A stretch of 64,000 nucleotides of DNA. Origin: Chitinophagaceae bacterium BSSC1. Its GTDB lineage: Bacteria > Bacteroidota > Bacteroidia > Chitinophagales > Chitinophagaceae. How positions within the stretch are numbered: position 1 is the first letter of the stretch; each line of letters begins with the position of its first letter. Positions 21,553-23,314 of the stretch are shown here, piece by piece. The notes beneath the pieces were generated by a model, which saw only the letters and a list, made by a program, of their open reading frames with translations, was not told the DNA's origin and made no database searches. The stretch lies in contig NKJC01000002.1 of NCBI GenBank assembly GCA_002256435.1, positions 291,996-355,995 on the forward strand. Direction: 5' to 3'. A program made the translations under genes and the position numbers.

Positions 21553-21572
21553 TTCTAAATGCTAACCACTTT

Positions 21573-21613
21573 AAGGGTAAAACGAATAACTGTTCGTTTT
21601 ACCCTTGTTTTTT
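21573..21613 (+). terminator. Rho-independent terminator after the deacetylase gene
   Basis: AAGGGTAAAACGAA and TTCGTTTTACCCTT form a perfect 14-base stem around TAACTG, followed by GTTTTTTG. Confidence 0.9.
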
Positions 21614-21713: not shown

Positions 21714-22691
21714 ATGACCTTGAATCCTACACGAATTGAAGTGATGCATTTTCTAGCACAGAAAATTGATAGTATCATTGAAGAATTCCTAAAACCCATA
21801 GACACAAATTGGCAACCTTCTGATTTTCTTCCTGAAAGTAATAACCCAGAATTTACAAAAGAGATCAAAGAAATTCAAGAACAGTGCAAAGCCCTTCCTT
21901 ATGATTATATGGCCATCTTGGTTGGTGATTTGATCACAGAAGAAGCACTTCCAACTTATGAAAGCTGGTTGATGGAAATTGATGGCATTAGCAAAGGTGA
22001 ACCGCAAGGTTGGAGTAAATGGGTTAGGATGTGGACAGCCGAAGAAAACAGACATGGTGATTTATTAAACAAATATATCTATCTATCTGGCCGAGTAAAT
22101 ATGCGCCAAATGGAAATTAGTACCCAACACTTAATTGCAGACGGAATGGAAATTGGCACTGCCAGAGACCCCTATCGCAATTTTGTTTACACTTCTTTCC
22201 AAGAAATGGCAACCAATATTTCTCATCGCAGAACTGCAACCATGGCAAAGAAACATGGCAACGAACAATTGTCAAAAATCTGCGGTGTAATTGCTGCAGA
22301 CGAAGCAAGACATGCAAAAGCCTATCGTTCATTTGTGACAAAAATCTTTGAAGTTGATCCAAGTGAAATGATGATTGCTTTAGAAGATATGATGCGTAAA
22401 AAAATTGTGATGCCAGCCCATTTTCTCCGCCAACAGGGAGAAAAAATTGGACAAAGCTGGTCACATTTTAGTGATGCTGCTCAAAGACTAGGAGTTTATA
22501 CAAGTATGGATTATACCAATATTTTAGAATCATTGGTAGAGGAATGGAATATTGGAAATATAACTGGTTTGAATGGTGCCGCTGAAAAAGGAAGAGATTA
22601 TCTAATGGGTTTGCCAGACCGATTCCGTAAAGTGGCTGAACGCAGTGGTATCAAAGCTCCTATTGACTATCAATTCAACTGGATATTATAA
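21714..22691 (+). CDS. Acyl-[acyl-carrier-protein] desaturase (ferritin-like di-iron)
   Basis: A 325-residue soluble desaturase of the stearoyl-ACP delta-9 type, which introduces a double bond into ACP-bound saturated acyl chains. The di-iron ligands are visible: E76/E77 region (LITEEA), EENRH at 110-114, FQE-x6-H at 162-171, and DEARH at 196-200. The C-terminus IDYQFNWIL looks complete. A TACCTTCG box at 21651-21658 could be a -7 element. Its last 25 bases lie within an open frame continuous with the protein-glutaminase-like gene that follows; see that entry. Confidence 0.92.
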   Translation: MTLNPTRIEVMHFLAQKIDSIIEEFLKPIDTNWQPSDFLPESNNPEFTKEIKEIQEQCKALPYDYMAILVGDLITEEALPTYESWLMEIDGISKGEPQGWSKWVRMWTAEENRHGDLLNKYIYLSGRVNMRQMEISTQHLIADGMEIGTARDPYRNFVYTSFQEMATNISHRRTATMAKKHGNEQLSKICGVIAADEARHAKAYRSFVTKIFEVDPSEMMIALEDMMRKKIVMPAHFLRQQGEKIGQSWSHFSDAAQRLGVYTSMDYTNILESLVEEWNIGNITGLNGAAEKGRDYLMGLPDRFRKVAERSGIKAPIDYQFNWIL

Positions 22692-22798
22692 ACAAGAAGA
22701 CGGTTTTTGACCAGCAACTTTCTGACACTTGGATTGGTACAGACTATCTAACCACTGACCAAGCTGCTCAAATAAATGATTATTTCAGAAAACATCCT
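22667..22798 (+). other. In-frame coding extension upstream of the glutaminase-like ORF with no standard start codon
   Basis: The frame of the glutaminase-like gene stays open upstream of its first TTG, back to a TGA at 22664-22666 inside the desaturase gene. It encodes NKKTVFDQQLSDTWIGTDY and then LTTDQAAQINDYFRKHP, which looks like real protein and supplies the helix that precedes the active-site Cys in protein glutaminases. No ATG, GTG or TTG occurs in frame here. CTG (22679), ATT (22685) and ATA (22688, touching the desaturase TAA) are the only plausible near-cognate starts. Confidence 0.6.
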
Positions 22799-23314
22799 TT
22801 GTTTTTCTGGAATGACATACACAATTGTGAAGACAGAGCTGAAGCCATTTCTATTTTGTTAACCCATTGGCAGATTCCACATTTTAAAGCTTGGGTATTT
22901 AGTGGTTACTTTCTCAATAGGAATATGGGGAGTTTAAAAAACAAATGGAATTACCATGTAGCTATTATGCTGCCTACGCTAGTAGGAACAGTTCCATCTG
23001 CCATGGTCCTTGACCCTACCCATTCAGATACTTTAGAAACAATTGAACACTGGGCAAATGCTGTTACACTAGATGCCCAAAGTCACCATTTAGTAAAACA
23101 GGGACATGTCTATATTTTTCCTGTTGGGCCAATTAGAAATGAAAACTGGCACCATCGCAATCGCCAAAATTACAAATGGACCATGCAGGGTTTAGCGGGC
23201 ATTAATGGCGTGAGTACAAAGGGAAAAGCCGCTGTAACTTTTAATAAATTTAAGATTGCTAGAACCATAAAGGCTTTTCAACTTCTACAAAGGAGTAAAC
23301 CATTCTCATTTTAA
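22799..23314 (+). CDS. Protein-glutaminase-like (protein glutamine deamidase fold) enzyme, no signal peptide
   Basis: The tracked ORF of 171 residues begins at TTG 22799 but is probably N-terminally incomplete. It carries the catalytic layout of Chryseobacterium protein-glutaminase: NCEDRAEAI (Cys10) corresponds to DGCYARAH, KWNYHVAIML (His53) to AWSYHVAILV, and AMVLDPT (Asp72) to the IIDPS Asp. The spacing of 43 and 19 residues is close to the 41 and 20 of the known enzyme as I recall it. KAWVFSG matches the strand between them. The family deamidates glutamine side chains in proteins. The known enzyme is a secreted pre-pro-protein, but no signal or pro-region is visible here, suggesting a cytoplasmic enzyme. 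It follows the desaturase with overlapping frames and may be translated by coupling. Confidence 0.75.
   Translation: MFFWNDIHNCEDRAEAISILLTHWQIPHFKAWVFSGYFLNRNMGSLKNKWNYHVAIMLPTLVGTVPSAMVLDPTHSDTLETIEHWANAVTLDAQSHHLVKQGHVYIFPVGPIRNENWHHRNRQNYKWTMQGLAGINGVSTKGKAAVTFNKFKIARTIKAFQLLQRSKPFSF

Follow-up and report, generated by a model that had tools for sequence, protein, structure and literature searches.

The stretch of DNA analyzed here (the window) is 64,000 nucleotides (nts) long. On its forward strand an acyl-ACP desaturase gene runs directly into an open frame that resembles protein-glutaminase (PG) and has no standard start codon where one would be expected. The features of this locus, all on the plus strand, are as follows.

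21572 to 21607, plus strand: terminator-like hairpin upstream of the desaturase gene, with a stem of 16 pairs and a T run
21714 to 22691, plus strand: acyl-ACP desaturase gene (FA_desaturase_2; PF03405, 460 bits), directly upstream of the PG-like gene, with its stop codon, TAA, at 22689 to 22691
22671 to 22726, plus strand: nucleotide block around the stop and the putative start, 2 of 56 sites variable among four genomes
22679 to 22681, plus strand: candidate start CTG, less favored, further from the stop and within the desaturase Asn-Trp codons
22685 to 22687, plus strand: candidate start ATT, giving a −7-nt overlap, with A at −12 and −13
22685 to 23314, plus strand: PG-like open reading frame, 209 amino acids (aa) counted from ATT 22685
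22688 to 22690, plus strand: candidate start ATA, forming ATAA with the desaturase stop (−4-nt overlap), with A at −3
22799 to 22801, plus strand: TTG, the first standard start codon, rejected as the true start
22826 to 22828, plus strand: codon of the catalytic Cys, Cys48, aligned with PG Cys42 (mature numbering) or Cys156 (pro-form numbering)
22955 to 22957, plus strand: codon of the catalytic His, His91, aligned to PG
23012 to 23014, plus strand: codon of the catalytic Asp, Asp110, aligned to PG
23090 to 23311, plus strand: C-terminal segment, residues 136 to 209 (RNRQNYKWTMQGLAGINGVS..GKAAVTFNK), conserved in the subfamily and outside the Pfam domain match

The PG-like frame follows a TGA at 22664, is open from 22667 to the TAA at 23312 to 23314 (215 codons), and overlaps the last 25 nts of the desaturase gene in the −1 frame. 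Its first ATG, GTG or TTG is TTG 22799, 44 codons into the frame and nine residues before the catalytic Cys. The window contains 44 stop-to-stop frames that are 200 codons or longer, and none of the others has so long a stretch before its first standard start. The gene is present in a single copy in the window's genome. A preliminary description of this DNA had stated that the frame has no standard start before the Cys except TTG 22799, and had named CTG 22679, ATT 22685 and ATA 22688 as near-cognate candidates; both statements held when checked on the window sequence. At the desaturase stop itself there are near-cognate codons only.

The same description had recognized a Cys-His-Asp layout with spacings of 43 and 19 residues, and this was confirmed. 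The Pfam profile PF18626 (Gln_deamidase_2) matched the window protein over residues 43 to 126 with 48.9 bits against a cut-off of 25 (E 8e-13), and it matched all 23 sequences of the subfamily to which the protein belongs. Cys48, His91 and Asp110 are invariant in those 23 sequences. The PG of Chryseobacterium proteolyticum (PDB 2ZK9, 3A54) likewise has a PF18626 domain with the same Cys-His-Asp order, and the motifs around the triad align; its published triad is C156/H197/D217, with spacings of 41 and 20 (PMC4214742). The subfamily profile aligned with the PG structures with the triad in register (E 2e-4 to 1e-3), compared to E 1e-40 to 1e-31 for a profile of secreted relatives, and in a profile-profile comparison the subfamily matched the secreted PG-like profile with a probability of 97.5% (E 5e-12).

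Other comparisons set limits to the resemblance. The NCBIfam equivalog for PG, NF040782, gave the window protein 12.4 bits against a cut-off of 250. A Foldseek search with the AlphaFold2 model of the protein (pLDDT 86, pTM 0.85) returned no PG match, whereas a secreted relative whose model is of far lower quality does match PG by structure search; by eye, helices and strands follow one another in the same order around the triad in the window protein's model and in PG. The C-terminal part differs from that of the Chryseobacterium enzyme. A structure search of viral models gave no match, and nothing meaningful was matched in a library of defense systems. Read together, these results describe a shared catalytic core, a divergent remainder, and a C-terminal segment peculiar to the subfamily. 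The name "protein-glutaminase" was thus right about the catalytic residues of the family and too specific about the enzyme: the window protein is related to PG but divergent and without a signal, and it is not PG itself. To judge from its sequence, it probably works like PG, but it should not be filed as PG.

The preliminary description had also held that the protein has no signal or pro-region, and its sequence supports this: about 47 residues precede the Cys, and the N terminus is hydrophilic. The Chryseobacterium PG, in contrast, is secreted and has a 21-aa signal and a 114-aa pro-sequence (PMC6132073). The best explanation of these features is a papain-like amide hydrolase of the cytoplasm that has a Cys-His-Asp triad and belongs to the PF18626 superfamily, and its most likely activity would be deamidation of glutamine side chains in an intracellular protein or peptide. 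There is, however, an appreciable though smaller chance that the protein is a papain-like amidase of a different kind; an amidase of N-terminal glutamine similar to NTAQ1, a peptidase, and a transferase are examples. Peptidases, transferases and deamidases all occur in the fold class (PMC10318531), the structure search with the secreted relative gave NTAQ1 as the fold directly behind PG, and PG is the closest structural relative of NTAQ1 in print (PMC4214742); the subfamily's own C-terminal segment, the model without a PG match, and the low equivalog score point the same way. On the other side, PF18626 and PG are where sequence profiles place the window protein, and the scores of other families were not meaningful. 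Human NTAQ1, which acts on N-terminal Gln, shares the wider fold class but has no sequence match to the window protein and is linked to the subfamily only through PG.

In profile searches by class and phylum, full-length subfamily members were found only in the window's own family, with more distant relatives elsewhere. Among the PF18626-related proteins, three of about 275 to 305 aa have no obvious signal peptide and form further, apparently intracellular, branches. Another genome (G522) carries the domain in a 633-aa protein whose N-terminal region resembles, by eye, the leader of eCIS-type (DUF4157-like) cargo.

Where the protein begins was judged from an end-to-end alignment of the 23 subfamily sequences, which are roughly 205 to 221 aa long; residues are numbered from ATT 22685. 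The relatives start at an ATG or TTG a few residues before a common N terminus, T-x-[FY]-D...LSD, which is followed by a helix. Upstream of TTG 22799, D14 and A27 are invariant in the 23 sequences and T6, D9, L12 and F34 are nearly so, and the helix, residues 24 to 36, is modeled confidently by AlphaFold2. A protein begun at TTG 22799 (or, in G165, a relative discussed below, at an additional, earlier TTG) would be decidedly unlikely as the product. In the window's gene no other standard start precedes the Cys, but translation from TTG 22799 would drop all six conserved residues together with the common N terminus and the helix, and at the nucleotide level the closest relatives conserve no part of the gene more than the codons upstream of this TTG. 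Because of this conservation, the short TTG product is not the protein of the family, and because of the N-terminal extent of the relatives, the PG-like gene would have to start in the region of the desaturase stop. The alignment thus bore out the earlier proposal that the true N terminus lies upstream of TTG 22799.

We searched 147 genomes of the genus for the PG-like gene and found it in 14. The start-less arrangement is present in four species-level genomes, the window's genome and G142, G074 and G165, whose proteins are 82 to 92% identical to the window's protein. Sequencing error is ruled out as its source because it recurs in these four separately assembled genomes. They share CTG GAT ATT ATA AAC AAG AA(G/A) ACG GTT TTT GAC, in which the desaturase end leads straight into the conserved N terminus, and ATA 22688 and ATT 22685 are kept in all four. 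None of the four has an ATG, GTG or TTG that would preserve the conserved N terminus; G165, the most distant member, has one in-frame TTG at residue 17, inside it. The four are monophyletic in the tree with support of 100/100, which shows that the start-less arrangement had a single origin.

The other genus relatives have standard starts. Eight begin the PG-like gene at ATG, from tens of nts to about 370 nts after the desaturase stop (seven of the eight have that stop on the same contig). In G113 and G128 the homologue begins at TTG, 33 nts after the desaturase TAA; in these two both genes lie in one reading frame, and no stop interrupts the PG frame between the desaturase TAA and the TTG. Between the two genes, four of the ATG-start relatives have a AAAAAAGCCATTTTTC-AAATGGCTTTTTT inverted repeat that by eye resembles a terminator; it is absent from the window's clade and was not called by a pattern scan.

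These arrangements bear on the possibility that a −1 ribosomal frameshift near the desaturase C terminus (22667 to 22691) fuses the two proteins. The PG frame does overlap the desaturase gene in the −1 frame from 22667 onward, and the overlap is kept in all four genomes. By inspection, however, the 25-nt overlap contains no X XXY YYZ heptamer, and a fusion would not be ancestral: in G113 and G128 the two genes are in the same phase, and elsewhere the genes lie tens to hundreds of nts apart. We regard such a fusion as very unlikely. Readthrough of the desaturase stop was ruled out separately, the PG frame being out of phase with the desaturase in the start-less clade.

Two genomes that carry only the desaturase, G112 and G134, also terminate it in ATATTATAA, with the ATT and ATA triplets; a search for PG remnants in desaturase-only genomes found none. 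Thus, ATT and ATA predate the start-less arrangement, having been present before it as desaturase codons, and the conservation of the triplets alone is no proof that they are used as starts. Presumably, the four-species clade lost the DNA that once lay between the desaturase stop and the original start codon of the PG-like gene, and the PG frame thereby became joined to these triplets.

We estimated selection on the gene within this clade. From codon 49 onward, dN/dS between members was 0.04 to 0.07 at dS values of 0.87 to 1.41, similar to that in the ATG group where dS could be estimated. Such low ratios at high dS indicate a functional gene, not a sequencing error. That the gene is instead a decaying pseudogene is most improbable. 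All four genomes are without a suitable standard start, as the loss of a start codon would leave them, but the frame is open in every one, the triad is intact, and the core has evolved under the same constraint as in the ATG-start relatives. The PG-like gene has thus long remained functional with no standard start codon. The alternative raised in the preliminary description, a protein truncated at its N terminus, is rejected in view of the N terminus common to the relatives and the strong purifying selection in the clade.

The first 47 codons behave differently from the core. Their dS within the start-less clade was only 0.08 to 0.39, and their dN/dS, 0.22 to 0.89, was raised largely owing to this low dS. 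Among degenerate codons for invariant amino acids, 25 of 30 were identical in all four genomes in this region versus 49 of 120 in the core (Fisher's P 2e-5, on four sequences). The ATG and TTG groups gave no significant synonymous contrast between the first 47 codons and the core. A narrower test over 12 codons was weaker (P 0.003), and a few windows elsewhere equaled it. Across the desaturase-PG unit, variable sites are scarcest in two 56-nt windows, namely, the block at 22671 to 22726 and the first 56 nts of the desaturase gene. This low synonymous change fits selection on the initiation region, without pinpointing the codon. From 22685 to 22826 synonymous change is depressed over the entire first 47 codons, beyond what a start context alone would need. 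An RNA element at the junction was ruled out: folding was no better than that of shuffled sequences, and the four sequences had no common structure.

Taken with the N-terminal extent of the protein and the codons that overlap the stop, the selection data support the earlier suggestion that the gene is coupled to the desaturase stop through a near-cognate start. We propose that ribosomes ending the desaturase at TAA 22689 to 22691 would begin again on a near-cognate codon in contact with that stop. The likeliest such codons are ATA 22688, whose ATAA has the same geometry as the common ATGA overlap, and ATT 22685. ATA would be the preferred start codon and ATT the second choice, because the −4-nt overlap is the commonest coupled arrangement and because ATA has an A at −3. 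The output of the PG-like protein would then be low and tied to translation of the desaturase. Overall, we think it fairly probable, chiefly from comparative evidence, that the gene encodes a cytoplasmic PF18626 amide hydrolase, probably a deamidase, made by near-cognate restart at the desaturase stop. More tentatively, with slightly less belief than doubt, we suggest that an AUA (or AUU) start, inherited stably and fused into the preceding stop, drives a conserved enzyme belonging to an intracellular PG-like deamidase subfamily, that post-termination ribosomes accept a codon that ordinary initiation rejects, and that the enzyme is made as a low, fixed fraction of desaturase output.

Near-cognate codons are weak starts. 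According to a value quoted in PMC10666635, ATT initiates at about 0.3% of the level of ATG. Reinitiation requires overlapping or very close codons, and −4 nts is the commonest overlap (PMC10666635). The pair described here resembles the ATGA-type pairs of that study in having a −4-nt overlap of stop and start on one mRNA; it differs in that the would-be start is ATA, with A instead of G as its third base, the stop is TAA, and only near-cognates are available. Mutant initiator tRNAs allowed reinitiation at non-AUG codons in E. coli (PMC2268962), which makes the mechanism possible but does not show that the native tRNA does this well.

Conserved starts other than ATG, GTG or TTG have precedents in infC and pcnB of E. 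coli (AUU), infC, ccpN and citZ of S. aureus (AUA), and sigR of Streptomyces (GTC). AUA and AUU starts are both documented in S. aureus (PMC13009471), and in the three organisms near-cognate starts hold output low (PMC13009471, PMC5472188). In the window's genome infC has an ATG available, so it offers no in-genome precedent for an ATT start. Unlike the known near-cognate starts, the candidate start of the PG-like gene sits on an upstream stop codon. Also, infC, cvfC1 and ccpN of S. aureus rely on extended Shine-Dalgarno pairing, whereas Bacteroidota are without Shine-Dalgarno sequences; in Flavobacterium, A at −3, −6, −12 and −13 promotes initiation (PMC6847099).

The start-codon arrangement is the more unusual half of the finding; the enzyme appears to be a new intracellular variant of a known family, and it represents an intracellular branch of this family, which is known for secreted enzymes used in food processing. 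Gene callers mostly seek ATG, GTG and TTG only, so genes of this kind are shortened or missed. The clade is also a natural setting in which to ask if near-cognate codons are better tolerated on reinitiation than on ordinary initiation; its close outgroups, which have retained ATG or TTG, can serve as controls.

We also considered what the neighboring desaturase implies for function. All 14 PG-bearing genomes of the genus carry the desaturase, which occurs in only about 22 of the 147, and the two genes adjoin in all 13 genomes whose contigs permit the check. This adjacency is confined to the genus. Because the order of all the surrounding genes is also conserved throughout the genus, the fact that the two genes are neighbors says little by itself about a common function. 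An order-level PF18626 search gave relatives in other genera; the subfamily occurs in five of them, in unrelated neighborhoods, and outside the genus FA_desaturase_2 is present in two of nine subfamily genomes and absent from seven (family baseline, 30 of 249). It had been proposed that the enzyme deamidates the desaturase, ACP or another lipid-synthesis protein, and the association within the genus is what favors this. However, linked genes are inherited together, the surrounding order is conserved as well, the association outside the genus is two of nine, and several genus genomes carry the desaturase without PG. The proposal is thus unsupported, and we consider it unlikely.

In the genus labeled g41, a radical SAM gene (PF04055) and/or genes for lipoprotein or TonB-C proteins come before the PG-like gene, in what may be a unit. 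In the window, scans for promoters and terminators gave counts no higher than those in shuffled sequences; for terminators the count is weak, with one found (the hairpin at 21572 to 21607) versus 1.4 expected. The desaturase-PG pair would be transcribed after this hairpin. On the other side of the PG-like gene, on the minus strand from 24809 to 23317, an acetoacetate-decarboxylase-like gene (PF06314) and an SDR gene overlap as TAGTG. The likely start of the SDR gene is GTG 24081 to 24079, not TTG 24135, which places an ordinary coupled start next to the unusual one.
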